From Rhodospirillaceae bacterium (GTDB lineage Bacteria; Pseudomonadota; Alphaproteobacteria; Rhodospirillales; JABHCV01): a DNA stretch of 64,000 bases. The stretch is from contig JABMOQ010000107.1 in assembly GCA_013204045.1 (NCBI GenBank), forward strand, positions 1 through 64,000. Direction: 5' to 3'. A program made the position numbers and the translations under genes. The notes under the pieces were generated by a model, which did no database searches, was not told the origin of the DNA, and was given only the letters and a program-made list of their open reading frames with translations. Positions 14,759-63,986 of this stretch are shown here, one piece after another (the stretch's first letter is position 1; each line of letters starts with the position of its first letter).

Positions 14759-14783
14759 AAGGGCCGGTGTTTCACCGGCCCTT
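14759..14783 (+). terminator. Intrinsic terminator after the AEP binding protein
   Basis: AAGGGCCGGTG and CACCGGCCCTT form a perfect 11-bp stem with a TTT loop, followed by CTTTTG. It lies inside the operon, so it should limit transcription of the ATPase and permease relative to the binding protein. Confidence 0.85.
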
Positions 14784-14835
14784 CTTTTGTATTAAACTAT
14801 GGCAAACGAATAACCATTGAACGGGGGGAAGGCTT

Positions 14836-17666: not shown

Positions 17667-17667
17667 C

Positions 17668-18273
17668 TCAGGCGACCGCCTCGATGGTCTTGACCATATC
17701 CAGGGTGATGTTGTTCACACTGCGGATTTCAAAACCGGCGGCGCGGACATTGGCAACGGTGTCGCGGTTGATCTCGGGGCCAAGGCCTCGAAACACCGGG
17801 TTCAACAGGTTCATCATCAGGCTGAACGGGAACACCCTTGAGCCGGTGTGCTCGAACATGTAAAGCCCGCCGCCCGGCTTCAATACCCGTTTGAGCTGTT
17901 TAAGCCCGGCCACCGGATCGGGGACCGAGCAGAAGGTGCACGACGTGAATACCTGATCGAAGCTTGCGTCGGCAAAGTCCATGTCATGCACATCCATTAC
18001 CCTGGCCGTCATGTTGCCGTCGTAAGCGGCGACACGGGGGGCGGCTTTCTCCAACATCTTCGGACTGATGTCGATGCCGGTGATGTCCTTGCCCGACGGA
18101 AAGCAGCCGATATCAAGGCCGGTGCCGACGGCCAGGAACAGGATCTTGCCCGCCATCTTGGCATATAGGGCCTCCTTCACCGGGCGCCAGCGCTTCTCCG
18201 GGCCGGCGCCGTTCATCAGGTCGAAAATACCTGCGGCCTTGTCCCATTTGTTGCGGGTGATGGCGTCGGTCAT
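17668..18273 (-). CDS. Class I SAM-dependent methyltransferase (UbiE/PmtA-like)
   Basis: A 201-residue Rossmann-fold methyltransferase starting at M-T-D-A-I-T-R-N-K-W-D. Motif I is degenerate but recognisable (L-F-L-A-V-G-T-G-L-D-I-G near residue 50), followed by D-I-S-P-K-M-L, F-T-S-C-T-F-C-S-V-P-D and L-K-R-V-L-K-P-G-G. The whole resembles UbiE-like enzymes, including Rhodobacter-type phosphatidylethanolamine N-methyltransferase PmtA. A lipid or small amine substrate is plausible given the neighbours but unproven. Its start overlaps the stop of a membrane protein (ATGA), so the two are coupled. Upstream in-frame codons belong to that gene. Confidence 0.75.
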   Translation of the reverse strand: MTDAITRNKWDKAAGIFDLMNGAGPEKRWRPVKEALYAKMAGKILFLAVGTGLDIGCFPSGKDITGIDISPKMLEKAAPRVAAYDGNMTARVMDVHDMDFADASFDQVFTSCTFCSVPDPVAGLKQLKRVLKPGGGLYMFEHTGSRVFPFSLMMNLLNPVFRGLGPEINRDTVANVRAAGFEIRSVNNITLDMVKTIEAVA

Positions 18274-18641
18274 CAGGCGGCCTGCCCATGCAGCCGGTCT
18301 TGCAGCAGGTAGGCGAGAACGCAGCCGATAATGCCGACTGTGACGCCGGTGCAAGCGACCTGGATCAGGCTAAGCGCATCGGCCCCGCGCATGGGAATGA
18401 CCATCCCGGCAGCCATGCCGCTCAACATGGCCGGGGCCATGAGCTCGAACAATCCAAAAAACGGTGCCAGCAGGAAGCCGACTAGTAAAGCGACGACCAT
18501 ACCCAGGGCCATGCCGATGAACATGGCTGGCACCATCCACCAGCCCCCGGGCAAAGCCCACCACACCAACCCACCGCTGGCAACGCCAGACAGCATGGCG
18601 GCGACAAGGTCGCCAAAAATGAAATAAGGACGCTTTTCCAT
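18273..18641 (-). CDS. Small integral membrane protein coupled to the methyltransferase
   Basis: A 122-residue protein with about four hydrophobic helices rich in Gly, Ala and Met (A-M-L-S-G-V-A-S-G-G-L; M-F-I-G-M-A-L-G-M-V-V-A-L-L; M-L-S-G-M-A-A-G-M-V-I; T-V-G-I-I-G-C-V-L). Glycine-spaced helices recur with an internal similarity (A-M-L-S-G twice), hinting at a duplicated two-helix unit. I do not recognise the family. Overlap with the methyltransferase suggests it anchors or supplies that enzyme. It is transcribed away from phnW. Confidence 0.65.
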   Translation of the reverse strand: MEKRPYFIFGDLVAAMLSGVASGGLVWWALPGGWWMVPAMFIGMALGMVVALLVGFLLAPFFGLFELMAPAMLSGMAAGMVIPMRGADALSLIQVACTGVTVGIIGCVLAYLLQDRLHGQAA

Positions 18642-18656
18642 AGGCCGGAATTATAC

Positions 18657-18669
18657 CGATAAATTATCG
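18657..18669. promoter_or_regulatory. Palindrome CGATAA-A-TTATCG in the divergent phnW promoter region
   Basis: A perfect 6+1+6 inverted repeat lies 16 nt upstream of the membrane-protein start and about 75 nt upstream of phnW. It is a candidate operator for either direction. Confidence 0.35.
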
Positions 18670-18745
18670 TTCGGCGTGTTTTTTAATGTGGCTTTTTGCC
18701 CGATTATGACCGATACTGCGCCGTCTTTAAATTGGAGATTCGGCC

Positions 18746-19870
18746 ATGCCCAGCCCCACAGGCGACCCATTCCTGCTGACCCCCGGCCCCTTGACCACGG
18801 CGATCGAGACCAAGGAAGCCATGCTCCATGACTGGGGCTCACGCGATGCCGGATTTATTGAAACCAACGCCCGCGTGCGCCAACGCGTCCTGGCCATCGC
18901 CAACGCCGCCGACACCCACGTTTGCGTGCCCATGCAGGGCAGTGGCACCTTCGCCGTCGAGGCGACCCTCGGCACTCTGGTCCCCCGGCAGGGAAAGTCC
19001 TTGATCCTCATTAACGGCGCCTACGGAAAACGCATGGCGAAAATTCTCGATTACATGAACCGCGCCTATGTCACCCTGGAAACACCCGAGGATTCAGCCC
19101 CCGATCCGGATGACGTTGACGCCATCCTGGCCGACGACGGCGATATTTCCCATGTCATCATGGTTCACTGCGAAACCACATCGGGCATCCTCAATCCGGT
19201 TGAAAAAATTTCCGAGATTTGCGCCGGCCATGGTCGTTCGTTGATCATAGACGCCATGAGCGCCTTCGGCGCCATCCAGATAGATGCCAAAAAGATACGT
19301 TTCGATGCCGTCATGGCGTCTTCCAACAAGTGCCTGGAAGGCGTCCCCGGCATGGGCTTTTCCATTATCCGCAAAACGTCTCTGGAAGACTGTAAGGGCA
19401 ATGCCCATTCCCTTAGCCTTGACCTTTTTGACCAGTGGCAGGCCATGGAAGCCAACAATCAGTGGCGCTTCACCCCGCCGACCCATGTCATTGCCGCCTT
19501 CGCCAAGGCACTAGATCTGTATGAAGCAGAAGGCGGGCAACCGGGCCGCCTCGCCCGATATGCCGCCAATTGCAAAATTCTTGTGGATGGCATGCGGGAC
19601 CTGGGCTTTAAAACCTTGCTGCCCGACCAGTTACAGGCGCCGATCATCGTCACCTTCCATATGGCGGCGGACCCCAAGTTTGACTTCCAGCGCTTTTATG
19701 ACGGGCTCAAAGACAAGGGATTCGTCATTTATCCCGGAAAATTGACGGTCGCCGACAGCTTCCGCATCGGCTGCATTGGGCAACTTGGCGAAACCGAAAT
19801 GAACGGCGCACTGGAAGCGGTGCGCCAGACCCTATCCGAAATGGGCGTCACCAGCGGCGCCCCCGCTTAA
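18746..19870 (+). CDS. phnW: 2-aminoethylphosphonate:pyruvate aminotransferase
   Basis: A 374-residue PLP aminotransferase that converts AEP and pyruvate to phosphonoacetaldehyde and alanine. Hallmarks are L-L-T-P-G-P-L near the start, R-D-A-G-F, the G-S-G-T-F-A-V-E-A cofactor loop, H-C-E-T-T-S-G, D-A-M-S-A-F-G and the Schiff-base lysine in S-S-N-K-C-L-E-G-V-P-G near residue 195. Length and order match PhnW. The start has a TGGAGA ribosome site. phnX follows 32 nt downstream, completing the two-step AEP pathway. Confidence 0.92.
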   Translation: MPSPTGDPFLLTPGPLTTAIETKEAMLHDWGSRDAGFIETNARVRQRVLAIANAADTHVCVPMQGSGTFAVEATLGTLVPRQGKSLILINGAYGKRMAKILDYMNRAYVTLETPEDSAPDPDDVDAILADDGDISHVIMVHCETTSGILNPVEKISEICAGHGRSLIIDAMSAFGAIQIDAKKIRFDAVMASSNKCLEGVPGMGFSIIRKTSLEDCKGNAHSLSLDLFDQWQAMEANNQWRFTPPTHVIAAFAKALDLYEAEGGQPGRLARYAANCKILVDGMRDLGFKTLLPDQLQAPIIVTFHMAADPKFDFQRFYDGLKDKGFVIYPGKLTVADSFRIGCIGQLGETEMNGALEAVRQTLSEMGVTSGAPA

Positions 19871-26743: not shown

Positions 26744-27172
26744 CCAGCCCCTATCTTATGGGTAGAAGGCGACAGTGCATGCCGAACCCTGCCACCTGAA
26801 TGGGCCGCCGATCTGGATCAGGCCCTCGTCCGCGGGACACGGTTCATCCGCGAGGTGGCATTTTTCCACCACCCCACCAAAACCCTGGTCCTGACCGATC
26901 TGATCGAAAACTATGGCGATGAAACGGCCGCCCGCCTGGACTGGAAAATGCAGATCTGGTGGAGGTTTATCTTCAGGATGTGGAACAACCCGAAACCGGC
27001 CCCTGAATACCAGATGGGATGGAAAGACAAGGCCGCGGCAAAACAGTCTCTGGAACGCATGCTCGCATGGAATTTTGAACGGATCATCATCGCCCATGGT
27101 GACTTGATCGACAGCGATGCCAAATCCGTGGCCATGTCGGCCTGGCGTTCCATTCTTGAAACGAGAGCCTAG
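26744..27172 (+). pseudogene. 5'-truncated DUF4336-type remnant
   Basis: The frame from about 26744 to the stop reads as the C-terminal half of a DUF4336 protein: E-W-A-A-D-L-D-Q-A-L-V-R-G, then V-A-F-F-H-H-P-T-K-T-L-V-L-T-D-L-I-E-N, and later I-I-I-A-H-G-D-L-I. These family members are usually around 230-250 residues; the N-terminal hundred or so are missing. The only NTG-type start of note, a GTG at 26855, lies in the middle of a conserved strand. Upstream the frame runs into the preceding gene's end without ATG or GTG. I read it as a decayed gene; a frameshift or an unusual start are alternatives. Confidence 0.6.
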
Positions 27173-28089
27173 CCTGTCAGAACGGCCAGTTGGGACTTGA
27201 AGTCACCGGACGCCATCAATTTTTTGCAGTTCTCGAAGCGGCCTTCCGCGTAGGCGGTAAAATTTTCGGCCGGGTTGTCGTTGGCCACCTGAATCGCCCC
27301 CCACAAAGTCCACAGCAAATCGCACATGGCCTTGTACATAACCATGCGGGCGTGCTTATCGGGCGGCGGCGGGCCGTCGAAATAGGCTTCCAGAAGCGCC
27401 TTGTCCTGGGCCGGGCCGAATTCTGCCTCGACGGACAGGTCGCCCAAATCCCACATGGCGTCGTTGTTGCCGGAATATTCCCAGTCGATCACATACATAC
27501 GGGCGCCCGTATCGAGGAAGTTTTCGGCCAGCGGATCGCAATGACACGGCACCAACGGTGCCGGGGCCCGAGCCAACGCGGCCCGCACGGCTTCGGCCTG
27601 TGTTTGGGTTTTCTCGTAATCATCCGGAATCCAGGCATTTTTTTCACGCAGCATGGTCAGGTATTCATCCATCATGGTGAAGATGTTGAATTCGGTGGAA
27701 AAATTTTCGCCGCAATCATGCAATTTTCTGAACGCCTGCCCAGCCCGGGCGACGGCCCCCAGATCCTTGAACAGCTGACTGTTCATGGTTACCGCGCCGT
27801 CAATGTAGCGGGTCAGTTGCACACCGTTGGCCGCATCAAAATAAAGTACTTCTGCGTTGATTCCGGCCTTGGCCGTGACCCGGGCGCAGACCTCTTCGGC
27901 CTTGCGGTCGATATATTCCCCGGTGCCTTCGCCGGCGATGCGCAGCATGTAACTGTCTTTTTCACCTTCGACGCCGATCCGGAAATTCCGGTTGGTCAGG
28001 CCGCCCAGACGCTCATAGCTGAAATGGTCCGCCGCCCTGCCTTTGAACAACGGAATCTCCAGCAGGGTATCGGTAACGTCGTCACTCAT
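27169..28089 (-). CDS. Choline/ethanolamine-kinase-like phosphotransferase (1)
   Basis: A 306-residue protein-kinase-like small-molecule kinase of the APH/choline kinase superfamily. A Brenner-type loop is visible as C-H-C-D-P-L-A-E-N-F near residue 183 (Cys where Gly/Asn is usual) and the metal-binding D in Y-V-I-D-W-E-Y-S-G near 203, with N-terminal G-G-L-T-N-R-N-F-R as the nucleotide loop. The D-W-E-Y-S-G-N-N form is characteristic of choline/ethanolamine kinases. It overlaps the demethylase by 4 nt. Substrate is probably an amino alcohol, inferred from family and operon. Confidence 0.8.
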   Translation of the reverse strand: MSDDVTDTLLEIPLFKGRAADHFSYERLGGLTNRNFRIGVEGEKDSYMLRIAGEGTGEYIDRKAEEVCARVTAKAGINAEVLYFDAANGVQLTRYIDGAVTMNSQLFKDLGAVARAGQAFRKLHDCGENFSTEFNIFTMMDEYLTMLREKNAWIPDDYEKTQTQAEAVRAALARAPAPLVPCHCDPLAENFLDTGARMYVIDWEYSGNNDAMWDLGDLSVEAEFGPAQDKALLEAYFDGPPPPDKHARMVMYKAMCDLLWTLWGAIQVANDNPAENFTAYAEGRFENCKKLMASGDFKSQLAVLTG

Positions 28090-30500
28090 GCTTTCAGCCT
28101 TTCCATTTTTGGATCATACAGCGGGCCATCGTGGCGGGTTGCCTGGAACACCTCGCCGAAGGCTTCTATCTGGAAATCGTTATGTTCGCATTCCCCGACC
28201 GGCAGGTAGCCGAACACCATGGGCTTGCCGATGGTGTGACCAAAATTGGCGCTGGTCGTCACTTCCAGCACTTTTCCGTCGCGCATGATCGGCTCCGAGC
28301 CATAAATGGCGGCTTCACCGTCTAGGGTGAAGAACTGCAACTTTCGAGTCACGCCCTCATTCCGGATGCGCTCCAACGCGTCCCGGCCAATGAAATCACC
28401 CTTCTTCATATTGACGCGGAAACTCAATCCCGCCTCGTAGGGGTTATAGTCGGGTGTGATGTCGGTGCTCCAGTAAAGATAGCCTTTCTCCATGCGCAGG
28501 GTGTCGATGGCCCGGTAGCCCACATTGGCGATGCCGAAATCCTTGCCGGCCGCGGCCAACGCCTGATAGACGGGCAGCATATGCGGTTTTTCCATATGCA
28601 GTTCCCATCCCAGTTCGCCCACATAACCGATGCGCTGGGCGCGTACCGGGTGGCCGGCGATCTTGATGTGTTTGAAAGTGGCGAACGGCAGGGCCCCGTT
28701 TGAAACGTCATCGTCGGTGACTTTCCCGAGAACATTGCGGGCATCTGGTCCACACAGGTTGATGACGCCGTTAACCTCGGTCAGGTCTTCGATGACCACC
28801 GAACCGTCGCCGGGGATATGGCCTTCAATCCAGCAACGATCATGAACGCCGAAGGCGCTGCCGGTGACCAGATAAAAATCATCCTCCCCCGAACGAGTGA
28901 TCGTCAGGTCGGCCTCGATGCCACCGCGGGGATTGAGGAACTGGGTATAGATGATCTTGCCCGGCTCCTTGTCCATGTCCGATACCGCCAGCCCTTGCAG
29001 AGCCTTCAGCGCACCAGCGCCGGAAATACGGAATTTGCTGAACGATGATTGATCGATCAGGGCGACGCGTTCGCGCACCGCCTTGTGTTCTTCCGCCACA
29101 CGGCCGAACCAGTTGGGACGGCGGAAGGTCAGGGTCTCGTCCAGTTTTTCGCCCTTGGGGATAAAGAAGTTGGGACGCTCCCATCCGGCCTTCGATCCAT
29201 AAGACGCGCCGTGCTCTTTCAACACATCGTAAATGGGGCTCTGGCGGATGTTGCGGGCCGACTCATGTTCTTCGCCGGGAAAGTGGACGTAATAGGTCTT
29301 GCCGTATGATTCGATGGTCCGTGGGTACAGGAACGATTTTTCATTGTGGTGATCGTTGAAGCGGCGGATGTCGAACGGCCACAGGTCGATACTGGGTTCG
29401 CCCTCGATGATCCACTCGGCGACCATCTGGCCGACGCCGCCGGCCGCCGCGATGCCAATTGAAATACCGGTGGCCGAGAAAAAGTTATCGACCTCAGGCG
29501 CCCAGCCAAGAATAAAACCTTCGTCCGCCGACCACGGAATCGGCCCGTTGATCATTTGGCGGATGCCGACTTCGTTGACGATGGGGGTGCGTTTGCCTGC
29601 GTTGATGGCCAACTGCTCGAAGCGGTCAAAGTTTTCCGGCAGCAGTTCCTGGGCGAAAGGCTCGGGGATACCGTTTTCACCGAAAGAAACCGTGTTCGGC
29701 TCCCAGCCGCCGATGGCGATGCCGCGCACTTCCGGTTTGTAATAGATCAGATGGTCAGGATCGCGCATACCCGGCATGTTATCGGGTACGCCGGGGATCG
29801 GGTCGGTGATGATGTACTGGTGTTCCAGTGCCACCGCCGGTGACTTGACCCCTGCTTTAAGCGCCAGGTCCCGGGACCAGAATCCGGCGGCATTAACGAC
29901 CACGTCGCATTTGACGGTGCCGTGATCGGTGATGAGTTCCTTGACCCGCCGGTTCTCGACGATGATATCCAGGACCTTGACGCCCTGGACGATCTCGGCG
30001 CCGTTGTCGCGGGCGCCCTTGGCAAAGGCCTGGGTCACACTGGAGGGGTCCACATAACCGTCGGTCGGGATGAAGGCGGCGCCAAGCACATCTTCGGTGC
30101 TCATGATCGGGAACAGATCTTGCGCTTGCTTGGGGGAAAGCATTTGCAACTCGAGCCCGAAGCTTTTGGCCATGGACGACGCCCGTTTAAGTTCCAGCAT
30201 CCGCTCATCAGAACACGCGAGACGGAGGCTGCCGACCTGCTTCCAGTCCACCACCTGTCCGGTCTCGGCCTCAAGACGGCCATAGATCTCGACACTTTTT
30301 TGCAGCACCCGGGTCAGGTTGCGCGACGAGCGCAATTGGCCGACAAGCCCCGCCGCGTGCCAGGTGGACCCCTGGGTCAGGCCGTTTTTTTCGATCAGCA
30401 GGACGTCCTTTTTACCCATTCTGGCCAGTTGATAAGCAACCGAACAGCCGACGATACCACCGCCGATGATGATGATTTCTGCATCCCTGAGGTCTGCCAT
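28086..30500 (-). CDS. FAD-dependent dimethylglycine/sarcosine-dehydrogenase-like demethylase
   Basis: An 804-residue enzyme with an N-terminal FAD-dependent amine oxidase domain (G-G-G-I-V-G-C-S near 12; S-T-W-H-A-A-G-L near 45, whose His binds FAD covalently in dimethylglycine dehydrogenase). A linker (370-425) and a C-terminal GcvT-type folate-binding domain (430-800, with Y-V-G-E-L-G-W-E and D-T-L-R-M-E-K-G-Y) follow. Such enzymes remove N-methyl groups and can pass the C1 unit to tetrahydrofolate. Flanking kinase genes and the betaine-type transporter upstream suggest an N-methylated amine from outside. The precise substrate is not readable. Confidence 0.87.
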   Translation of the reverse strand: MADLRDAEIIIIGGGIVGCSVAYQLARMGKKDVLLIEKNGLTQGSTWHAAGLVGQLRSSRNLTRVLQKSVEIYGRLEAETGQVVDWKQVGSLRLACSDERMLELKRASSMAKSFGLELQMLSPKQAQDLFPIMSTEDVLGAAFIPTDGYVDPSSVTQAFAKGARDNGAEIVQGVKVLDIIVENRRVKELITDHGTVKCDVVVNAAGFWSRDLALKAGVKSPAVALEHQYIITDPIPGVPDNMPGMRDPDHLIYYKPEVRGIAIGGWEPNTVSFGENGIPEPFAQELLPENFDRFEQLAINAGKRTPIVNEVGIRQMINGPIPWSADEGFILGWAPEVDNFFSATGISIGIAAAGGVGQMVAEWIIEGEPSIDLWPFDIRRFNDHHNEKSFLYPRTIESYGKTYYVHFPGEEHESARNIRQSPIYDVLKEHGASYGSKAGWERPNFFIPKGEKLDETLTFRRPNWFGRVAEEHKAVRERVALIDQSSFSKFRISGAGALKALQGLAVSDMDKEPGKIIYTQFLNPRGGIEADLTITRSGEDDFYLVTGSAFGVHDRCWIEGHIPGDGSVVIEDLTEVNGVINLCGPDARNVLGKVTDDDVSNGALPFATFKHIKIAGHPVRAQRIGYVGELGWELHMEKPHMLPVYQALAAAGKDFGIANVGYRAIDTLRMEKGYLYWSTDITPDYNPYEAGLSFRVNMKKGDFIGRDALERIRNEGVTRKLQFFTLDGEAAIYGSEPIMRDGKVLEVTTSANFGHTIGKPMVFGYLPVGECEHNDFQIEAFGEVFQATRHDGPLYDPKMERLKA

Positions 30501-30512
30501 TGCCGTTCTCCG

Positions 30513-31382
30513 TTATCCCGAAAAGGTTTCATAGGCACGCCGAAAGCGTGCCAGGTTTTCATCAGTGTAGGCGATATAGTCAAAATCTATGGTGGAATGA
30601 ACTTCCGACACCATGCTCCACATGGTTTCGCGCAGCAGCGAAGCGCATTTCATGGCTTCGTAACGGCGCAACAAGCCATCGTCTGCGGGCGCGCCGTAAT
30701 AGGCTTCAAGCAACCAACGTTCCTGCTCTGGTGAAAACTCGTTGTTGGACGCCAGCCCACCCAGATCAAACAGCGGGCTGTTGTAACCGGCGTAATCCCA
30801 ATCGATCAACCATAGCCTGGCGCCGTCATCGATGAAATTTGCGGCCAGTAGATCGTTATGACCGAACACCACCTCTACCGGACCGACGGCTTTTTCCAGT
30901 ATCGCCGCCATTTCACTTAAAGAATCTAACTGGCCCAACATGCGGCTGTCAGCTTCCTTCAGGGTCTGGGTGTAATCCCGCAGCACATGAAAAACCCAGA
31001 ACACCAGCGCCGCCCCCCTGAAGTGGTTGGGCAATTCATCATGCACCTTTCGGATCAGGGGAATAATACGTTGCAGGTTCTCAGGCTTGCGCACATCTTC
31101 CGGCCCGAAGGTTTTACCGTCGATGAACCTCAGAACCAGGGCGCCGGGCTCGGCGTGGACGACTTCCGGTGATATGCCCGCCGCAAATGCCGCCCGGCTG
31201 GTGGCCAGTTCGTTGAAACGCATGATGCCGTGTTCGGGAATATCATCACCAATCCTGACCACGAATTTTCCCGAATTGTCGGTAACGACAAAATTGGTGT
31301 TGGTAATACCGCCGGCCAGTGGTTGCGGATCGACCGGTCCGTACCAGCAACGAAGTGCGCGTGCTTTTTCGATTGCTTCCAT
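30513..31382 (-). CDS. Choline/ethanolamine-kinase-like phosphotransferase (2)
   Basis: A 289-residue paralogue of the first kinase. G-G-I-T-N-T-N-F forms the nucleotide loop, F-G-H-N-D-L-L-A-A-N-F the catalytic loop and W-L-I-D-W-D-Y-A-G the metal site. Here the catalytic loop is canonical (H-N-D), unlike the H-C-D of the other copy, so the two may differ in activity or substrate. It lies between the permease gene (3-nt gap) and the demethylase (12-nt gap), in one operon. Confidence 0.82.
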   Translation of the reverse strand: MEAIEKARALRCWYGPVDPQPLAGGITNTNFVVTDNSGKFVVRIGDDIPEHGIMRFNELATSRAAFAAGISPEVVHAEPGALVLRFIDGKTFGPEDVRKPENLQRIIPLIRKVHDELPNHFRGAALVFWVFHVLRDYTQTLKEADSRMLGQLDSLSEMAAILEKAVGPVEVVFGHNDLLAANFIDDGARLWLIDWDYAGYNSPLFDLGGLASNNEFSPEQERWLLEAYYGAPADDGLLRRYEAMKCASLLRETMWSMVSEVHSTIDFDYIAYTDENLARFRRAYETFSG

Positions 31383-31385
31383 GCC

Positions 31386-33392
31386 CTACTCCAGTCCCAA
31401 TTCGGCCTTGCGCCGGGTGCTCCAGGCGTTGATCAGGCGATCGGAAATAATGGCGATGAAGGCGACACAGACACCGGCGACGATGCCGCGCCCGGAATCG
31501 GCCTTGGTCAGGGCGATGTAGACCTCCTGGCCGAGATCCCGGGTGCCAACCAGCGCCGTAATCACCAGCATGGACAAGGCCATCATGATGGTCTGGTTGA
31601 TGCCGAGCATGATTTCCGGCAGCGCCAGCGGCATCTGCACTTTCCACAACACCTGGCGGCGGGTGCAACCGGCGGCGCGGGCCGCTTCGATCAAATGCGG
31701 CGGCACCTGACGCAGGCCGTGGTTTGTATAGCGGATGGCCGGCGCCAGGGCATAAGCGATAACCGCCAGCATGGCGGCAAAATCGCCGACCCGAAACAGC
31801 ATCACCACCGGCATCAGGTAAACGAACGATGGCAATGTCTGCAGGGTATCGATCGCCGCCTGCACGATTCGGTTCAATCGTTCGTTACGGGAAGCGGCAA
31901 TGCCGATGGGGATACCGATGGCGCAGGCGATCAACACCGAAAGACCGCACAAGTAAACGGTGACCATTGATTTCGGCCATTGCCCGACAACGGCGATGAA
32001 CAGCGCCAATGCGCCGGTCAGCAGCGCCAGCCGCCAACCGCCCAGTTGCCAACCGCCCAGCGCCACCAGCCCGACGACCGCCACCCATGGCAGGCCGAGC
32101 AGGAAGCGCTTGAACGGAATCATAATATTCAGCAACAGGAAGTTCTTGAAGCCGTCGAGCTGGTCGAAATAGTTGATGTTGATCGACCTGACCAGATCGC
32201 CCCAAAAAGCGCCGGTGGTCAGCTGCAGGGTTTCCGGGTAGGCATTCATGACCGTCATTCCCGCGCCCGCCGCCCATGTGACGGCGATAATGGCAAAGGC
32301 CAGACATAAATGCGGATTGCGGCGAATGAAGCCGTGACTCGTTACCTCGTGCACCGGTGGCGGGCGCCGGGCATAGGCCTGACTCAAACGGTCCAGCGCG
32401 ATGGCCAGCAGGGTAATCGCCAGCCCGGCCTCGACCCCCTCACCAATTTTAAGACGCTTCAAGGCATTGAGCACATCAAAACCAAGCCCGCCGGCGCCGA
32501 TCATGGACGCGATGATGACCATGTTCAGGGACAGCATGACGACCTGGTTGACGCCGACCATCAGGGTCGACTTGGCGGCCGGGATTTGCACCTTCCATAA
32601 TAACTGCCGCGGGCTGCACCCGGCCATGGAGCCGAATTCGGTAATTTCCGACGGCACCTGTTTTAACGCCAGCAAGGTAATACGGACCATGGGCGGCATG
32701 GCATAAATGATGGTGGCGATCATCGCCGAAACGGGGCTGAACCCGAACAGGATCAATATGGGCACAAGATAGGCGAACACCGGCACCGTTTGCATCAGGT
32801 CGAGGACCGGCCGGATGGCCAATTCAAAACGCCGCGACCGGAACCCGGCGATGCCCAGCGCCAACCCACCGGCGACACCGAACGGCACCGCGATAATAAT
32901 CGACGACAAGGTCACCATGGCGCTATCCCACTGCCCGAAGACAGCGAGATAAAGGAAACACAGCCCGACCAGCAACGCCAGCTTCCAGTCCTTGGCATAA
33001 AGCCCCATCAGGGAGACCACGGAAATGACGGCCAGCCACGACAGGCGCGGGAAAATCTCGACCGCGTCGGAGCCCTGCCCCTTCAGAAAGCCGGTCGACA
33101 GCAGGCTTCTGACCAGCCAGTAGGGCTGCTCGATAACCCAGGCGATGGAGCGGGTAAGCTCCCGGAAGGTAAACAGGCCCAGGTCAAATTCATTGAGCAG
33201 CCATTTTACAAAATCGCTGATCCAGACACTTATGGGGATGACCCATTCCCGTGGAAACTTGAAGGCCCAAGGAAGGTTTTCCTTGCCGATCAGGCTGACA
33301 ACTACGGCCAGCCCGAGCGCCACCACCCAGATGATAAGCCACGGATTTACCGAAATCGGACGGTGGCCGGAAACGATGGCAGGGCTGTTCAC
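31386..33392 (-). CDS. Betaine/quaternary-amine ABC permease, two fused domains
   Basis: A 668-residue inner-membrane permease with two complete ProW/OpuAB-type domains (about residues 60-330 and 370-660). Conserved loops are E-F-G-S-M-A-G-C-S-P-R-Q-L-L-W-K-V in the first and E-A-A-R-A-A-G-C-T-R-R-Q-V-L-W-K-V in the second. Most glycine-betaine systems use one domain forming a dimer, so this is a tandem fusion. The first base pairs overlap the ATPase stop (4 nt). The binding protein encoded upstream is OpuAC/ProX-like. Confidence 0.87.
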   Translation of the reverse strand: MNSPAIVSGHRPISVNPWLIIWVVALGLAVVVSLIGKENLPWAFKFPREWVIPISVWISDFVKWLLNEFDLGLFTFRELTRSIAWVIEQPYWLVRSLLSTGFLKGQGSDAVEIFPRLSWLAVISVVSLMGLYAKDWKLALLVGLCFLYLAVFGQWDSAMVTLSSIIIAVPFGVAGGLALGIAGFRSRRFELAIRPVLDLMQTVPVFAYLVPILILFGFSPVSAMIATIIYAMPPMVRITLLALKQVPSEITEFGSMAGCSPRQLLWKVQIPAAKSTLMVGVNQVVMLSLNMVIIASMIGAGGLGFDVLNALKRLKIGEGVEAGLAITLLAIALDRLSQAYARRPPPVHEVTSHGFIRRNPHLCLAFAIIAVTWAAGAGMTVMNAYPETLQLTTGAFWGDLVRSININYFDQLDGFKNFLLLNIMIPFKRFLLGLPWVAVVGLVALGGWQLGGWRLALLTGALALFIAVVGQWPKSMVTVYLCGLSVLIACAIGIPIGIAASRNERLNRIVQAAIDTLQTLPSFVYLMPVVMLFRVGDFAAMLAVIAYALAPAIRYTNHGLRQVPPHLIEAARAAGCTRRQVLWKVQMPLALPEIMLGINQTIMMALSMLVITALVGTRDLGQEVYIALTKADSGRGIVAGVCVAFIAIISDRLINAWSTRRKAELGLE

Positions 33393-34417
33393 AAGCCACC
33401 CTCCTTCTCGACCAATACCGCCAGCACCGCGTCCCGGGTAACCTCGCCGACAATGGCGCCGCCTTTATTGACGACCGAAAAGGGCGCACCCGCGTTGACA
33501 ATATCGGCGGCCAAATCGCCAATCTTGGTGGTTACCAGAACCTGCCCGGCGACGGTGGCGCCAGATACCGGCCCCATGATGGCGCCCGCCGACAGTACCT
33601 TGGCGCGCGGAATGCCGCGGGTGAATTCCGCCACATAGTCGGTGGCCGGATTGAGCACCAGTTCTTCCGGCGTTCCCGTCTGGATGATTTCGCCGCCGTT
33701 CATGATGGCGATACGGTCAGCAAGGCGAATGGCCTCGTCAAAATCATGGGTGATAAAGACGATGGTTTTATGCAGCACGTTTTGCAGACGCATGAATTCA
33801 TCCTGCATCTCGCGGCGGATCAACGGATCGAGGGCCGAAAAAGGTTCGTCTAAAAACCAGATTTCCGGTTTCACGGCCAAAGACCGGGCAATGCCCACGC
33901 GCTGCTGTTGGCCGCCCGACAATTCGCGCGGATAGTACCCTTCGCGCCCGACCAGCCCGACCAGTTCGATAACTTCGCGGGCGCGGGCCTCGCGGGTTTG
34001 CCGGCCCACCCCCTGAACCTCAAGGGGAAAGGCGACGTTGCCTAATACGGTCAGATGGGGCAGCAGGGCAAAATGCTGGAACACCATGCCCATCTTGTGC
34101 CGGCGAATCTCGATCAGCTCTTTTACGCCGGTTTTGAGCAGGTCCCGGCCTTCGAACAGGACCTCGCCGGCGGTCGGCTCGATCAGCCTGCTCATGCACC
34201 GGACAAGCGTCGACTTGCCACAGCCGGACAGCCCCATGATAACGAAAATCTCGCCCTCGGCGACCGACAGGCTGACATCGCGCACCGCGCCGATATAGCC
34301 TTCCTCGGCCATATTGTTTGTGGTCGGCGCATTATTGTGCCGGGACAGAAAACCCGCCGGGTTTTCGCCGAAAATCTTCCAGACATTGTTGCAGACAAGC
34401 TTACTGGACTCAGACAT
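33389..34417 (-). CDS. Betaine-type ABC transporter ATPase (ProV/OpuAA-like)
   Basis: A 342-residue ATPase. Walker A is G-L-S-G-C-G-K-S-T near residue 58, signature L-S-G-G-Q-Q-Q-R-V near 165 and Walker B I-W-F-L-D-E-P-F-S-A-L-D-P. The C-terminal 75 residues resemble a single degenerate CBS unit; full ProV proteins carry two, which sense ionic strength, so osmotic gating may be absent. The N-terminal extension containing F-G-E-N-P is typical of ProV. It is separated from the binding-protein gene by a strong terminator. Confidence 0.88.
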   Translation of the reverse strand: MSESSKLVCNNVWKIFGENPAGFLSRHNNAPTTNNMAEEGYIGAVRDVSLSVAEGEIFVIMGLSGCGKSTLVRCMSRLIEPTAGEVLFEGRDLLKTGVKELIEIRRHKMGMVFQHFALLPHLTVLGNVAFPLEVQGVGRQTREARAREVIELVGLVGREGYYPRELSGGQQQRVGIARSLAVKPEIWFLDEPFSALDPLIRREMQDEFMRLQNVLHKTIVFITHDFDEAIRLADRIAIMNGGEIIQTGTPEELVLNPATDYVAEFTRGIPRAKVLSAGAIMGPVSGATVAGQVLVTTKIGDLAADIVNAGAPFSVVNKGGAIVGEVTRDAVLAVLVEKEGGL

Positions 34418-46161: not shown

Positions 46162-48009
46162 CTAAAGGGCCAACCGGGCCAGAGTCTCGTTGGACGGAAC
46201 GCCTTCGGCGGTCCAGCCACGCAGCTCGTAGTATTCAGGCAGCATCTTAAGCAAATCGCTGACCTTGCCTTTGGCCGGGCCGGTTTTGGCCGCGTCCTTG
46301 AGCATACGCTGGGGAAGCAAATCGTCGGCGGCGGTAAAACCGGCGTCGTTGTTGAACTTGCGTTCCAGGTTCCAGATACGCTCGCCGGCTTCCATCATGG
46401 TTTCCGATGTCCAGCCGCCTTCGCTGTCGGCCGCCATCATCGGCGAGATGTCGTCCATGGTCAGGGCGAAGGTGGTGAAGATGCAGGTACCGGTCGAATC
46501 GACGGCCGCCGTCGCATCCTGAAACGCCTTGACCAGACCGGGCTTGCCGTCGGACGTCAGCGGATCGGTCTTTTCCGGAATGCCCAGGACTTCCGACGCC
46601 ACCGTGTAGCTGCGCAAATGGCAGGCCCCGCGGTTGGATGTGGCGTAGGTCAGGCCCATGCCCTGAATGCCGCGCGGATCGTAAGCCGGGAATTCCTGGC
46701 TTTTGACCGTCATGGACAATTCCGGGTGGCCGTACTTTTCGCAGAGGCGGCGCGAGCCCTGACCGATTTCCTTGCCGAAACCCTGGCCCAGGCCGGTCTG
46801 GTCGCAGATTTTCGCCAACGCTTCCGCCGAGCCCCACTCCAGCTTGATGCCGCCGGTTTCCTTATCGGTGATAGCGCCGATCTCATAGAGCTCCATGGCC
46901 GCGGCCACGGTCGAGCCGAGCGAGATCGGGTCCATGCCGTATTCATTGCAGATGTAGTTGCAGTAGGTCAGGGTTTCCAAATCGGAAACGCCGGTCGCTG
47001 CCCCCAACGCCCAGGCGGCTTCGTATTCAAGGCCACCTTCCTTGCCGTGGTATTTGGGCTGTCCCTTGACCGTGAAATGGTTGGCATCCATCTGCGACAC
47101 CCGCTGGCACGATATCGGGCAACCGAAGCAGGCCGCGTTGGAAACCAGGTTGGCCTTGCCGTCGCTTTCCCGGGGCTCGGTCATGGCTTCGCCGCCGATC
47201 TTCGATGCCCCATCGAACTGGATATCCTTGGCGTTGTGGGTCGGCAGTGCGCCGGTTTCGTTGATAACGTTCATCAACACCTGGGTGCCATAGGTCGGCA
47301 GCCCCTCGCCGGTGACCGCATTATCGGCCAGAATCTGCTTGGCCGCACCGGCGGCCTGCATGAACTTCATGGCATCATCAACCGGGACACCGACGGTGCC
47401 ACGGCAGGCAATCGCCTTGAGGTTTTTCGATCCCATGACGGCACCGACACCGGAACGTCCGGCGGCACGATCCTTGTCGTTGACGACGCCGGCAAACAGC
47501 ACGCCGGATTCACCGGCCTGCCCGACCGAGGCGCAACGGATGTCGTTGTCGCCACGCGCCGCGCGCAAGGCGTCTTCCGTATCCCACACCGACATGCCCC
47601 ACATGGCGGAAGCATCTTTCAGTTCGGCGTTTTCATTGTCGATGTCCAGATAGACCGGTTTCGCCGACTTGCCTTCGAAAATGATCATGTCCCAGCCGGC
47701 GTTCTTTAGTTCAGCACCGAAAAATCCGCCTGAATTGGAACAAGCGATGGCGCCGGTCAACGGGCCCTTGCAGATCACCGACCAGCGACCGGATGTCGGC
47801 GCGGCGGTGCCGGTCAACGGACCGGTGGCGAAGATCAGTTTGTTCTCGGGCGACATGGGATCGACCTTGGGGTCGCATTCCTCGACGAAATACTTGGTCG
47901 CCAGTCCACGCTGGCCGATGTATTTCTTGGCCCAATCCATGTTCAGCGGTTCGCTAACGCAGGTGCCGCTGGTGAGGTTTACCCTGAGTATCTTTTTAGT
48001 CCATGACAT
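46162..48009 (-). CDS. aorB: Aldehyde:ferredoxin oxidoreductase, tungsten-type catalytic subunit
   Basis: A 615-residue AOR-family enzyme oxidising aldehydes to acids (or reducing acids at low potential) using a bis-tungstopterin. The N-terminal domain begins W-T-K-K-I-L-R-V-N-L. The [4Fe-4S] cysteines lie in C-F-G-C-P-I-S-C near 300 and D-S-T-G-T-C near 515. The pterin-binding stretch is R-S-G-V-G-A-V-M-G-S-K-N-L-K-A near 190. A GGAGG ribosome site precedes it. The full set (polyferredoxin, this subunit, FAD subunit, MoaD-like) matches AorABC of Aromatoleum. The aldehyde substrate is unknown; no tungstate transporter is in the window. Confidence 0.9.
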   Translation of the reverse strand: MSWTKKILRVNLTSGTCVSEPLNMDWAKKYIGQRGLATKYFVEECDPKVDPMSPENKLIFATGPLTGTAAPTSGRWSVICKGPLTGAIACSNSGGFFGAELKNAGWDMIIFEGKSAKPVYLDIDNENAELKDASAMWGMSVWDTEDALRAARGDNDIRCASVGQAGESGVLFAGVVNDKDRAAGRSGVGAVMGSKNLKAIACRGTVGVPVDDAMKFMQAAGAAKQILADNAVTGEGLPTYGTQVLMNVINETGALPTHNAKDIQFDGASKIGGEAMTEPRESDGKANLVSNAACFGCPISCQRVSQMDANHFTVKGQPKYHGKEGGLEYEAAWALGAATGVSDLETLTYCNYICNEYGMDPISLGSTVAAAMELYEIGAITDKETGGIKLEWGSAEALAKICDQTGLGQGFGKEIGQGSRRLCEKYGHPELSMTVKSQEFPAYDPRGIQGMGLTYATSNRGACHLRSYTVASEVLGIPEKTDPLTSDGKPGLVKAFQDATAAVDSTGTCIFTTFALTMDDISPMMAADSEGGWTSETMMEAGERIWNLERKFNNDAGFTAADDLLPQRMLKDAAKTGPAKGKVSDLLKMLPEYYELRGWTAEGVPSNETLARLAL

Positions 48010-58322: not shown

Positions 58323-59051
58323 TTACTCCAACACCCCGGTAAACTTGTAGCCGTGGCCCGGCACGGTGACGATGTATTTGGGGTTTTTGGGGGATTTTTC
58401 GATCTTCTTGCGCAGGCGGCTGACGTAAACGTCGATCATGCGGTCTGACGGCGGCTCGTCATCGCGGGCGATGGCGTCGAGCAGGTGATCGCGGGACAGC
58501 ACCCGGTTCGGGGCCTTGACAAGGGCGGCCAGAAGATTGAATTCACCGCCGGTCAATGGCACGTCATCGCCACCGGCGGCGGTTAGCGTGCGCGATGCCA
58601 GATCAAGCCGCCAGCCATCGAAGTCTATTGTTTCGGCCGTCTCGTCTTGGCGCTCGCCGCTGCGTTTGAGCACATTACGCACCCTGAGCACCAGTTCCCG
58701 CGGATCGAACGGCTTGGTCAGGAAGTCATCGGCGCCGATGCCAAGGCCGGTCAGCCGGTCCTCCATGCCCTTGCGGGCCGTCATGATGATGATGGGAACG
58801 TTCGAGCGGGCCCGAATCTGGCGGGCCAGAGTCAGGCCGTCTTCATCGGGCAAGGTCAGGTCGAGCAAGATCAGGTCGGCCGGGCGCTTGTTGAGGGCGG
58901 CGAACATATCCTTGCCGGTCAGCACCCCGGTAATGTCATAGCCTTCCTGCTCCAGGTAGACGCCAAGCAGAGATTGCATCATTTCGTCGTCCTCGACGAC
59001 CAGCAGATGCAGCTTCTTTCGGTCATTTTTTGTTGAAATCAAACCCCCCAA
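58323..59051 (-). CDS. OmpR-family response regulator
   Basis: A 242-residue two-component regulator with receiver domain (residues 12-125; phosphoacceptor Asp in L-I-L-L-D-L-T-L-P-D, conserved D-D-E at the start and T-K-P-F-D-P-R-E-L at the end) and a winged-helix DNA-binding domain (140-240, with S-R-D-H-L-L-D-A, I-D-V-Y-V-S-R-L-R-K-K-I and V-P-G-H-G-Y). Start is probably TTG preceding a run of G; the exact start is uncertain. It is divergent from the receiver-kinase gene and likely works with it. Confidence 0.88.
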   Translation of the reverse strand: MGGLISTKNDRKKLHLLVVEDDEMMQSLLGVYLEQEGYDITGVLTGKDMFAALNKRPADLILLDLTLPDEDGLTLARQIRARSNVPIIIMTARKGMEDRLTGLGIGADDFLTKPFDPRELVLRVRNVLKRSGERQDETAETIDFDGWRLDLASRTLTAAGGDDVPLTGGEFNLLAALVKAPNRVLSRDHLLDAIARDDEPPSDRMIDVYVSRLRKKIEKSPKNPKYIVTVPGHGYKFTGVLE

Positions 59052-59177
59052 CTTTCATGTGTTTATTGTCATTGGGCCGTCGGCGTTTGCAACATTCTAG
59101 CAACATTGCGGCCATATGGACACAACAACATGATGCCATGTTGCTCCTCAAGTCACCCGAACAGGCGCAACTGGATC

Positions 59178-60428
59178 ATGGAACAGACAATGGAATTGAA
59201 TATGATAGACAACGCCGTTTTGACAACGGCCAAGATTCTGATCGTCGATGACGAGCCCGATATCATCGACGAGGTGGTCGAGCAACTTGAAGACGAAGGC
59301 CTTGTCTGTGTTTCCGCCTATAACGCCGCCCAGGCCCTTGAGCTGATCGAGGCCGACACCGCGATCGGCGTCGTCGTCACCGACATCCGCATGCCCGGCA
59401 TGGACGGCCTGGAAATGGCCCGCAAGCTATCCGATGATTACGGCGACAGCCGCGACCTGTTCGTCATCGTGGTCACCGGCCACGCCGGCATGAAGGAAGC
59501 CATCGAGGCCCTGCAACTGGGCGCCGAGGATTTTCTGACCAAGCCGATCTCGCCGGACCATCTTCTGCACTCGGTGCGCCGGGCCGGGGAAATGATCCAC
59601 CTACGCGCCAACGAACGCTTCTACCAACAGAAGCTGGAACAGCAGGTCCAGGCAAAAACCACCGAGGTCCGCGAGCTGGCCGCCGACCTTGCGGCGCGCA
59701 ACCAGGAACTGCACACCAAAAACCGGGAGCTGACGGTGGTCAGCCAATTGAAGGACGAATTCCTGCAAATGATGAGCCACGAGCTGAACACACCGCTCAA
59801 CGCCATCATCGGCTTCTCGCAATTGCTGATGGATTCGGCCAGGCAAAAAGCCGATGACACGGCTGAAAAATGCGCCAGCTACATTTATTCGAGCGGCATG
59901 CGTTTGATGAAAACCTTCGATTCCATCATCACCCTGTCGTCCCTGACGGCGGGGGATTTCAATCTTACGCCTTCACGCTTCTCGGCCCGCAATTTCATCG
60001 ATTCGACGATTTCCGAATTCACGCCGATGCTGGACAACTGGAAGGCCGACCTTCAATGCGATATGCCGGAACGCCCCTTCGACATGACCGCCGATTTCCA
60101 GGAACTTCTAAAAGCCGTCGGTCACCTGATCGAAAACGCCGCCAAATACGGCAACGAAGGCGGCAAGGTTCATCTGACCATCAGCCGGAAAGACGGCCAG
60201 GTTGTTTTCGCGGTCACCGATAACGGCCCCGGCATGACGGCGAAACAGGCCGCCATCGCGCAGGAACCCATGCGCCAGGTCGATGGCTCCCTTGCCCGAA
60301 AGTACGAAGGCATGGGCCTTGGCCTGCCCTTGGCCAGGGCCATCGCGGAACTGCACGGCGGCCGGCTTGATGTGGACAGCACACCGGGCAGCGGCACCAC
60401 CGTCACCATCACCGTGCCGGAAAAATAG
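59178..60428 (+). CDS. Receiver-histidine kinase hybrid
   Basis: A 416-residue cytosolic protein with an N-terminal receiver (I-L-I-V-D-D-E-P-D near residue 16; V-V-V-T-D-I-R-M-P-G phosphoacceptor; T-K-P-I-S), coiled coil (165-215, Q-A-K-T-T-E-V-R-E-L), HisKA H-box (M-M-S-H-E-L-N-T-P-L-N) and HATPase (N-A-A-K-Y-G; D-N-G-P-G-M; G-M-G-L-G-L-P). No membrane segment. Input therefore comes through receiver phosphorylation. Start at M-E-Q-T-M-E-L is chosen; two further Met follow. The next gene overlaps or starts at its stop. Confidence 0.87.
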   Translation: MEQTMELNMIDNAVLTTAKILIVDDEPDIIDEVVEQLEDEGLVCVSAYNAAQALELIEADTAIGVVVTDIRMPGMDGLEMARKLSDDYGDSRDLFVIVVTGHAGMKEAIEALQLGAEDFLTKPISPDHLLHSVRRAGEMIHLRANERFYQQKLEQQVQAKTTEVRELAADLAARNQELHTKNRELTVVSQLKDEFLQMMSHELNTPLNAIIGFSQLLMDSARQKADDTAEKCASYIYSSGMRLMKTFDSIITLSSLTAGDFNLTPSRFSARNFIDSTISEFTPMLDNWKADLQCDMPERPFDMTADFQELLKAVGHLIENAAKYGNEGGKVHLTISRKDGQVVFAVTDNGPGMTAKQAAIAQEPMRQVDGSLARKYEGMGLGLPLARAIAELHGGRLDVDSTPGSGTTVTITVPEK

Positions 60429-61345
60429 AGGCCAGGAAAATCAGAAATTTAATCATAGCCGGGCCCCTCGCCTTTGCCATCGCCATCGCATGGTTGGGCA
60501 ATAGCGATATCAACCTGTCGGAAAATTACGGCCTGCAAACCGCAGGCACCGGAGACGAAGATAGGCGACTCATTCACTTCGGCTTCGATCTGCGCGGCAC
60601 CCCCGATGAAGACGCTCGCCAGTACCTGGCGTTCCTGAATTACCTTGAGGCCAAAACCGGCCGTCGCTTCGTGCTGCGCTTTACGCCCAAGGATGGAAAG
60701 CTCGACGAAGACCTGGCAAATGGTGTGGTCGAAGTGGCCGCCGTCGGCGCCGTCAGTTACCTGAACGCCAGCCAGTTGGGAAACGTGATTCCCCTGGCCC
60801 GTGGCCTGAACAAGCAGGGCAAGGCCGTCTATAAATCGGTGATCGTCACCCTGCCCGGCAGCGCCATCCATTCCATTGACGATCTTCGCGGTAAAAGAAT
60901 GGCTTTCGGCGGCATCGATTCAACGCAAGGCCACATTATTCCACGGCTTTCCCTGAACGCCGCCGGTATCCATCTGGATGATCTTGCCACCTATGTCTAC
61001 ACCGGTTCGCACCGCAGTTGCGCCAACGCGGTAATCGACGGCATTGCCGACGCCTGCGCCATGCAAGATACTCTGGGCGAAACCCTTGAATCAGAAGGCA
61101 AGGTCACGATTATTTTCTCCTCAAAAAATTATCCGTCCAGCGGCATCGCCGCCAACACCACGCTGCCCAAGGAAATTCTCGACAAAATCACCGCCGCCCT
61201 GATCGATTTCGACCCCACCGGCGCCCATGCGGTCGAACTTTATAACTGGGGACGCACGGAAATGCCCAACGGCTTCATCGTTGCAAAGGACAGCGACTAC
61301 AAGGATATGCGCGCCAACCTGCAAAAACTCGGGCTGTTGAGGTAG
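60425..61345 (+). CDS. PhnD-like periplasmic binding protein (non-NTG start proposed)
   Basis: About 306 residues if read from ATA at 60425, which overlaps the kinase stop (ATAG). It is 301 residues if started at ATC 60440, and 283 from the first NTG (TTG 60494). The upstream codons encode a Sec signal peptide (R-K-I-R-N-L-I-I-A-G-P-L-A-F-A-I-A-I-A), which a TTG start would destroy. The mature part is a phosphate/phosphite/phosphonate (PhnD) family fold: F-G-F-D-L-R-G-T-P; Y-L-A-F-L-N-Y-L-E-A-K-T-G; V-A-A-V-G-A-V-S-Y; I-D-S-T-Q-G-H. No ABC partners are nearby; kinase genes flank it. It is likely a sensory ligand-binding protein. Confidence 0.75.
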   Translation: MEARKIRNLIIAGPLAFAIAIAWLGNSDINLSENYGLQTAGTGDEDRRLIHFGFDLRGTPDEDARQYLAFLNYLEAKTGRRFVLRFTPKDGKLDEDLANGVVEVAAVGAVSYLNASQLGNVIPLARGLNKQGKAVYKSVIVTLPGSAIHSIDDLRGKRMAFGGIDSTQGHIIPRLSLNAAGIHLDDLATYVYTGSHRSCANAVIDGIADACAMQDTLGETLESEGKVTIIFSSKNYPSSGIAANTTLPKEILDKITAALIDFDPTGAHAVELYNWGRTEMPNGFIVAKDSDYKDMRANLQKLGLLR

Positions 61346-61348
61346 ATT

Positions 61349-63493
61349 ATGAACACCAAACGAAACACCCTCAGGCACCCGACCCTGGCGCTGCCCCTGC
61401 TGATCTGCCTGATCGGGGCGGCGACCGCCGGAATCTCCATTGCCACCCTGTATAGGGTGTCCATTGACGAAGAAAAAACCCGGCTGACCCAAATGGTCCA
61501 CAGCCAGGCCCGGCTGATGGAGGCCGTCGCCGAATTTGAAAATGCACACAGCCACCAGGAACATCCCGGCGGCGCCTTCGGGGCGACCATGGCGCAAATC
61601 GTCGCCGCCCACAAATCCATCGATGGTTTCGGGGAAACTGGCGAGTTCGTCATCGGCAAGCTGATCGATGGTCAGGTCGCGCTTTTGCAACCGCCGCGCT
61701 TTGAAGGCGACCTTAACTTCCAGATTCCGGCATTTGCCCCGGTTCCCATGCAGCGGGCGTTATCGGGTGAAAGCGGCGTAATTATCGCGCCCGATTACAA
61801 AGGCAATGAGGTGTTGGCATCCTATGTGCCGGTTCCTGTCCTGAACATCGGTCTGGTCGCCAAAATCGATACCCATGAACTGTACCGACCCTTTATCGTG
61901 GCAGGCCTGGTCGCGACGCTGCTTTCGGCGCTCATGCTGGTGATCGGGTTCTATGCGGCGCGCTATTTCGCCGCCCCCTTCGCCGAACGGGAAGCGGTTC
62001 TTAAAACCCTTACGAAAAACCAGAAAGAACTCGCCAAGGCCCAGCAACTGGCGGGGCTTGGAAGCTGGAGCTGGAACCTGTCTGACAATTTTGAAGAATG
62101 GTCTGACGAACAATTCAGGATTTTCGGCTATGAGCCGGGGGAAGTCACCCCGACCCTCGACCTGTTCATCAACGCCCTACACCCGAAAGACCAGGCGGGG
62201 GTCGCCCTGGAAGTTGAAAACACCCTGAATAATGACGCACCCTACGACACCGAATTCCGGATTATCGATGCCAAAGGGAAGGTTCGCCACGTACAGGCCC
62301 ATGGCGAGGTCGCGCGCGACAAGGATGGCAAGGCGGTTTCCATGATCGGAACCATCATGGATATTACCGAGCGCAGAACATCCGAACAGGCATTGAAAAA
62401 AAGTGAGGAACGCTTCACCAAAAGCCAGAATTTTGCCAACATCGGCACCTGGGACTGGGATATCCAAAACGGCAATCTGTACTGGTCTGACCGCATCGCG
62501 CCCTTTTTCGGATACGAAGCGGGGACCCTGGAAACCACCTATGAAAACTTCGTTGGCGCCATCCACCCGGATGACCGACAGGCCGTGACCGACGCCGTCA
62601 CCGCATGCGTCGAGGACGGCATTAAATACAACATCGAACACCGGGTCGTGTGGCCCGACGGCACCGTGCGTTACCTGCATGAAAAAGGCGACGTGGTTCG
62701 CGATGAAGACGGCAAGCCCCTGAACATGCTTGGTGTCGTCCAGGACATTACCAAAAGCAAGTCCCTGCAAGCCCAGTTGATCCAGTCGTCGAAGATGGCG
62801 ACCCTGGGTGAAATGGCGACCGGCGTCGCCCACGAATTACACCAGCCCCTTAACGTCATCCGCATGGCCATCAACAACATCCAGCGCAAACTGAAAGACA
62901 ACAAGGCTGATCCCGGGTACCTGTCCAACAAGCTGGGCAAGATCGACAATCAGGTTGAACGGGCCACGGCGATCATCGAACACATGTGCATTTTCGGCCG
63001 CAAGCCGGGCACCACCCCGGTGCCGCTGGACCCGAAAAAGATAGTCGACAGCACCCTGGGCATGATCGGCGAACAGCTGCGCCTGGCCGATATTCAGGTC
63101 ACCGTCGAGGCGCCGGAAAAATGCCCACTAATTTTAGGCCACCAGGTACAGGTCGAGCAGGTACTGCTCAACCTGATCGGCAACGCCCGCGATATTCTTA
63201 AAGATTGGCACCAGGGCGAAAAACGCATCTCGATCACCGTCGGGGAAAGCGCCGACGCGGTCATCATCGCCGTCGAGGACAGCGGCGGCGGTATTGCCGA
63301 AAGTGACCTGCCGCGCATCTTCGAGCCGTTCTTCACCACCAAGGAAATTGGCCAGGGCACCGGGTTGGGCCTGTCCATCAGCTACGGCATCATCACCGAC
63401 ATGGGCGGCACCATTACGGCGGCCAACACCGATGGCGGGGCGCGCTTTGTCATCTGCCTGCCCCAAGACACGCAGGAAACGGTGGCGGCTTGA
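61349..63493 (+). CDS. Membrane PAS-domain sensor histidine kinase
   Basis: A 714-residue sensor. A membrane helix at 12-33, a periplasmic domain of about 145 residues and a second helix near 182-205 are followed by two PAS_3-like domains (235-350 and 365-480, each with W-S-W/W-D-W and a V-x-D-I-T-x exit). HisKA H-box is [14 protein letters not shown] near 490. HATPase has [14 protein letters not shown] and G-T-G-L-G-L-S. It starts 3 nt after the PhnD-like gene, so both form a sensor unit. No output domain: a separate regulator (perhaps the neighbouring receiver proteins) is needed. Confidence 0.87.
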
Positions 63494-63554
63494 CGGCGGC
63501 GACCGGTGGCAGCAAGCTATCGGCATCTTGACCCCGTAGCCTTGAGGATTTTTC

Positions 63555-63986
63555 ATGCGTTCGTGTGTTACCTGCCCCGGCGCCGGCACCGGCGATTGCG
63601 CCGGCACCAACCTGCACCCGGTTTTGGGCAAGGTGCTGGAGCTTTACGGCGACGGCATGACCGACAAGTTCGACATCCTGTTCGCCCTTGGCAGCGACGC
63701 CGAGAAATTGCTGGAACGCTATACCTACCGGGTGTCGCCCGATTGCTGGTCCAGGGCCTCGTTGCTGGCCATCGCCGACGCCCTGGTAGCCGGCGGGGCG
63801 CCGGAAGATACCATCCGGACGGCCAAAAACGCCTTCGCCCTTTTCCCGTGGCGCCTGGAAGAGCTGGTCGAACAGGCACCGGATCTCTATCAGGCGGTTC
63901 TCGTCAGCACCCCCGATGACAGCTTCGAACAAGCCTTCAGCAAGCGGGCGTTCGTCAAGATCTGCAAACAGGTCGCTTACGAATAG
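63555..63986 (+). CDS. Small protein with N-terminal Cys cluster
   Basis: A 143-residue soluble protein. Its first residues carry C-V-T-C and a further C (M-R-S-C-V-T-C-P-G-A-G-T-G-D-C-A-G), a possible metal or redox site. The remainder is helical. No domain is recognised. It follows the PAS kinase by 61 nt on the same strand, and probably belongs to the signalling cluster. The frame ends 14 nt before the window end. Confidence 0.65.
   Translation: MRSCVTCPGAGTGDCAGTNLHPVLGKVLELYGDGMTDKFDILFALGSDAEKLLERYTYRVSPDCWSRASLLAIADALVAGGAPEDTIRTAKNAFALFPWRLEELVEQAPDLYQAVLVSTPDDSFEQAFSKRAFVKICKQVAYE

Follow-up and report, generated by a model that had tools for sequence, protein, structure and literature searches.

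A PhnD-like binding protein without ABC partners as part of the candidate exchangeable input of a proposed receiver-kinase and membrane-kinase relay

Binding proteins of family PF12974 are mostly annotated as transport proteins, which raises the question of what one of them does between two kinase genes. We addressed this question in a 64,000-nucleotide stretch of DNA from a Rhodospirillaceae bacterium (contig JABMOQ010000107.1; hereafter, the window), where the genes for an OmpR/TorR-type response regulator, a receiver-kinase (RR-HK), a PhnD/PtxB-like binding protein (SBP) and a membrane kinase (HK) all lie within 5.2 kb (Table 1). The initial annotation had named a receiver-kinase, a PhnD-type SBP without ABC partners and a membrane PAS kinase in this order. 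Pfam searches and open reading frames recovered the same arrangement, with no ABC ATPase or permease detected beside the SBP among the Pfam matches and open reading frames of the window. The cluster had also been drawn as extending from 59178 to 63986. Its genes fill this interval as far as 63493, where the kinase stops; what follows is a separate 143-aa open reading frame with no significant family match and no counterpart in the loci of relatives, and we rejected it as a part of the system.

The RR-HK has no predicted transmembrane (TM) segment, while the membrane kinase has predicted segments near residues 13-31 and 182-200, followed by two PAS_3 domains, HisKA and HATPase_c. Catalytic motifs are intact in both kinases and in the OmpR-type regulator. 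The SBP frame is likewise uninterrupted and sits close to both neighbours: it begins about 11 nt past the RR-HK stop (counted from the start codon proposed below) and ends 3 nt before the kinase gene. The kinase sensor domain had no match in the PDB by sequence. Its structural model (pLDDT 84.9) resembles single-Cache domains, with weak structural matches (best E 0.006), which leaves predicted secondary structure as the main basis for the label 'Cache-like'.

Table 1. Features of the kinase cluster and of the AEP genes in the window.
Feature	Position	Strand	Basis or remark
AEP uptake/transamination genes phnS2, phnT2, phnU2, phnW	13687-19870		All above equivalog cut-offs
OmpR/TorR-type response regulator (receiver + winged helix)	58323-59051	-	Pfam: Response_reg 8e-29, Trans_reg_C 5e-26; divergent from operon
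39-bp element GCAACATTCTAGCAACATTGCGGCCATATGGACACAACA, GCAACA repeated at 11-bp pitch	59089-59127	+	Candidate regulator site/promoter
RR-HK: N-terminal receiver (D69), HisKA (H201), HATPase_c; cytosolic	59178-60428	+	Pfam: Response_reg 8e-29, HisKA 3e-15, HATPase_c 4e-25; motifs, no TM
PhnD/PtxB-like SBP with predicted N-terminal signal/anchor	60440-61345	+	PF12974 Phosphonate-bd 6e-51; start inferred (ATC 60440)
Membrane HK: TM, Cache-like periplasmic domain, TM, PAS, PAS, HisKA (H495), HATPase_c	61349-63493	+	Pfam
143-aa open reading frame	63555-63986		Outside the proposed system

Whether the SBP faces the periplasm, as the initial annotation had supposed, turns on its start codon. The open frame spans 60371-61345, and the region of the frame from 60425 to 60496 offers no ATG, GTG or TTG that would include the signal/anchor segment. 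The only standard start, TTG at 60494, sits past the hydrophobic segment and would yield a cytosolic protein. All SBP homologues with a known N-terminus carry an N-terminal hydrophobic segment, three of them with a lipobox. Since no standard start keeps the anchor and the homologues with a known N-terminus all have such a segment, the start would be either a rare codon or the site of a sequence variant. We infer that it is ATC 60440-60442, which lies 8 nt after a GAGG (60428-60431), retains the anchor and gives a homologue-like N-terminus, IRNLIIAGPLAFAIAIAWL. With this start the SBP is predicted to be anchored and periplasmic, in agreement with the earlier supposition.

The SBP scores 173.6 bits against PF12974 (gathering cut-off 27), and the solved structures nearest to it in sequence are PtxB, ArrX, PhnD, HtxB and AioX. 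An AlphaFold2 model (pLDDT 80.6) produced Foldseek matches to PtxB (3e-24), AioX (9e-23) and ArrX (2e-22), and the modelled fold points to a small oxyanion as the ligand. In alignments (residue 1 being the codon at 60425), Y136, S166, T167 and H196 correspond to PhnD Tyr93, Ser127, Thr128 and His157. Gln168 replaces PhnD Ser129 and PhnD Tyr47 is not conserved, and ligand binding may therefore be altered. In PhnD, Glu177 and Asp205 hold the amine of AEP, and in AioX, Cys106 binds arsenite (PMC5908839). Both carboxylates are gone from the aligned SBP, which has T216 and S239 in their place, making AEP binding unlikely. AioX-type arsenite binding is also unlikely, as the equivalent of Cys106 is Gly108, and the SBP was set aside as an arsenite receptor of that type for this reason.

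Close homologues of the SBP (about 48-57% identity) were found in 3 of the 317 genomes of the order, the window's own included, and in Spirochaetales and Phycisphaerae MAGs. A 398-genome sample of the phylum contained none beyond the window's own genome, and a search for viral relatives found none. The subfamily forms one clade (support 100/100) that is separate from ArrX in the same tree. A membrane HK directly follows the SBP gene at every locus with readable downstream DNA (L037, L031, L032, L033 and L034), in a small sample of eight SBPs of which several lie on short MAG contigs and the non-proteobacterial ones are possibly mis-binned. HK open reading frames also follow several SBPs of the sister group. 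Elsewhere, as in other phyla, the sensor that accompanies the subfamily is another one, of a HAMP-linked kind.

The RR-HK family occurs in 12 of the 317 genomes of the order. At all eight RR-HK loci with a readable downstream flank, several of them on short, fragmentary MAG contigs, the next kinase gene has the same kinase core as in the window. The nearest relative, G002, belongs to the same family and has an ortholog of the OmpR gene in the corresponding divergent position (phmmer 4e-127); conservation of this gene beside the operon is confined to the family. Both the adjacency of the kinases and the retention of the regulator in G002 are consistent with the signalling unit of RR-HK, HK and OmpR protein that the initial annotation had proposed. 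The RR-HKs of the window and G002 are sisters (support 99/98) with 65% identity, and their kinase cores share 71% identity. Homology between the two membrane kinases starts only at about residue 212, just past the second TM segment. With the cores alike and the homology confined to the region from there on, the SBP together with the TM-sensor-TM segment is the part that differs between the two operons.

Other operons carry still other inputs. G002 has a CHASE3 sensor and no SBP, and G005 another membrane sensor, also with no SBP. The sensor of the window (63-65% identity) comes directly after the RR-HK, with no SBP between them, in G180, G016 and G177; sensors of this type are widespread in the order, occurring in 109 of 248 genomes. 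G041 keeps the RR-HK/SBP/HK order, with a PhnD-like SBP of the same family and a HAMP-linked sensor of the Cache type, the kind found with the SBP in other phyla. In G017 (L117:285-4959), an SBP_bac_3 protein occupies the SBP slot and is followed by another sensor. Judged by these sequence comparisons, the RR-HK and the membrane kinase core are a conserved pair with exchanged inputs, an arrangement that is new here.

Building on the domains, intact catalytic motifs, gene order, input exchange and conserved promoter element of the locus, we lean towards an SBP-assisted phosphorelay that would run from an anchored oxyanion receptor through the membrane kinase and the RR-HK to the OmpR-type regulator, with an exchangeable input. 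The anchored SBP would bind a small oxyanion in the periplasm, other than AEP and other than arsenite held in the AioX mode, and the ligand-bound form would dock on the neighbouring membrane PAS kinase, at that kinase's Cache-like domain in the periplasm. This kinase would phosphorylate the cytosolic RR-HK on its receiver, and the RR-HK could act as an intermediate kinase in the manner of ExsG and set the phosphorylation of the divergent OmpR-type regulator; the direction of both transfers is presumed. The regulator may in turn control the operon by binding the tandem GCAACA element within the divergent promoter of its own gene. The exchangeable input would comprise the SBP gene and the N-terminal TM-sensor-TM segment of the kinase, and the conserved unit the RR-HK and the kinase core.

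Parts of this scheme have counterparts in known systems. AioX and ArrX serve sensor kinases as receptors of oxyanions (PMC5908839), and the AioX-AioS-AioR and ArrX-ArrS-ArrR systems combine a PhnD-fold periplasmic SBP, a membrane kinase and a regulator without ABC partners. Their receptors are among the closest structures to the SBP, and their SBP, kinase and regulator genes lie together, as in the window. However, the SBP lacks the arsenite-binding cysteine and belongs to a clade separate from ArrX, and the window adds an RR-HK relay step and has no adjacent Mo-enzyme. The tetrathionate and thiosulfate kinases TtrS and ThsS (PMC5408782) also feed an HK through a PhnD-like oxyanion-binding module, although in those proteins PhnD domain and kinase are fused into one chain, whereas here the two are separate open reading frames. 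The same genome also encodes a PF12974-HK fusion and a LuxR-type regulator beside DsrE, SoxY and SoxZ (L128, G000:C5:7000-17000, at 4264-6772), and this fusion is a candidate TtrS/ThsS-type sensor for thiosulfate.

ExsG of the BphP1 cascade (PMC3899027) resembles the RR-HK in having a soluble N-terminal receiver, a C-terminal kinase and no TM segment. It acts as an intermediate, with a sensor kinase upstream of it and a regulator downstream, the place that we propose for the RR-HK, and phosphorylation of its receiver can invert the signal. Unlike ExsG, which is an HWE-family hexamer, the RR-HK matches HisKA and HATPase_c with no HWE match, and its downstream partner is of the OmpR type. In CuaD-CuaS-CuaR (PMC10384115), the SBP binds the sensor kinase and is an add-on that raises the sensitivity of a two-component pair also working alone; that system differs in having a sugar SBP, a Gram-positive host and no RR-HK.

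The main rival to the SBP-assisted relay is direct sensing by the membrane kinase, which would detect a ligand of its own with the Cache-like domain, the SBP being a recent insertion that is not needed for signalling or that only sequesters ligand. Three operons have the same sensor right after the RR-HK without an SBP, the nearest relative has no SBP either, and no standard start codon keeps the signal segment of the SBP. Because the same sensor occurs in these three operons, coupling of the SBP to the kinase is likely rather than established, and, given that the subfamily has a HAMP-linked partner elsewhere, the SBP and sensor of the window may be a recent or non-cognate combination. A CuaDSR-type add-on role would reconcile the SBP-free operons with an SBP that takes part in signalling. 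Against a dispensable SBP stand its intact frame, packed tightly between the kinase genes, the kinase adjacency of its subfamily wherever downstream DNA is readable, the RR-HK/SBP/HK order kept in G041 and the unrelated SBP that fills the slot in G017, and on balance we consider this rival unlikely.

Two further readings concern phosphonates and transport. In the first, the SBP would respond to phosphonates or AEP and be coupled to the window's AEP island, a link that the initial annotation had raised as suggestive. The PhnD fold of the SBP and the presence of phnS2-T2-U2-W would fit this reading. However, besides lacking both amine-holding carboxylates, the SBP misses the equivalog cut-off of TIGR03431, the PhnD phosphonate transporter SBP (97.3 against 261.1 bits). 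The AEP operon, which encodes an SBP of its own, is about 40 kb away from the kinase cluster, with unrelated genes in between, no phosphonate gene was found among the identified neighbours of close SBP relatives, and a phnC-phnD-phnE locus with phnH/I/J (C-P lyase) is present elsewhere in the genome (L127, G000:C159:5500-15000). Phosphonate or AEP sensing is thus highly improbable, and coupling to the island was rejected on the pocket residues, the distance and the separate AEP SBP. The more general suggestion of anion sensing fared better, since most PhnD oxyanion-binding residues are kept in the alignment; phosphonate and AEP are not supported as ligands. It is most improbable that the SBP is an ordinary transporter part using an ABC permease encoded elsewhere, such as phnCE of contig C159. 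The genome does encode such a pair and the usual annotation of PF12974 would suit this role, but the pair has its own PhnD, matched by E. coli PhnD at 1e-93, whereas the neighbours of the SBP are kinases. No ABC genes were seen beside close homologues of the subfamily, and a predicted anchor or lipobox with kinase adjacency suits a receptor better. With no ABC neighbours and the phnCDE set on contig C159, we rejected the SBP as an ABC-transporter component.

Returning to the SBP-assisted relay, we tentatively suggest a broader possibility, that the conserved pair is a relay cassette with a standing receptor slot. Unrelated SBPs (PhnD-like, SBP_bac_3) might be inserted between the kinase genes with matching or non-matching sensors, plugging new ligands into one output. 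The PhnD-like subfamily would then be a portable, kinase-dedicated oxyanion receptor shared among Alphaproteobacteria, Spirochaetes and Planctomycetes, and its ligand would belong neither to the phosphonates nor to the arsenic oxyanions.

The 39-bp element before the operon is conserved in the OmpR/RR-HK intergenic region of G002 (L115/L132), where its flanks diverge, and its local alignment score of 33 compares with a maximum of 15 in 1000 shuffles. An 11-bp repeat pitch is expected of OmpR-family sites. The element is probably a regulator site but might instead be part of a promoter. A third copy lies upstream of rpoH in G002 (L130:1501-1540) and may join the signalling system to the heat-shock sigma factor. 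Exact GCAACA-N5-GCAACA matches on contig C136 of the window's genome (G000) and contig C52 of G002 were rejected as further copies because the remainder of the element is missing. One-mismatch matches in the genomes showed no excess over the control level and so were not used as a regulon.

These operons offer natural chimeras for studying how sensor kinases acquire SBPs and exchange them: one kinase core is found with an SBP and a Cache sensor, with a Cache sensor alone, with a CHASE3 sensor, and with an SBP_bac_3 protein and another sensor. The comparison further delimits a small subfamily of candidate oxyanion receptors, which could be screened in the search for new biosensors, and it points to a DNA element that would serve as a reporter of the system's output.

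Two other regions of the window drew our attention. At 27169-34417, choline/betaine-type ABC genes and two kinases distantly matching guanitoxin GntI (below the cut-off) surround a GcvT/sarcosine-oxidase-like protein. At 46162-48009, an aldehyde ferredoxin oxidoreductase (AFOR_N and AFOR_C) adjoins a pyridine nucleotide-disulphide oxidoreductase.
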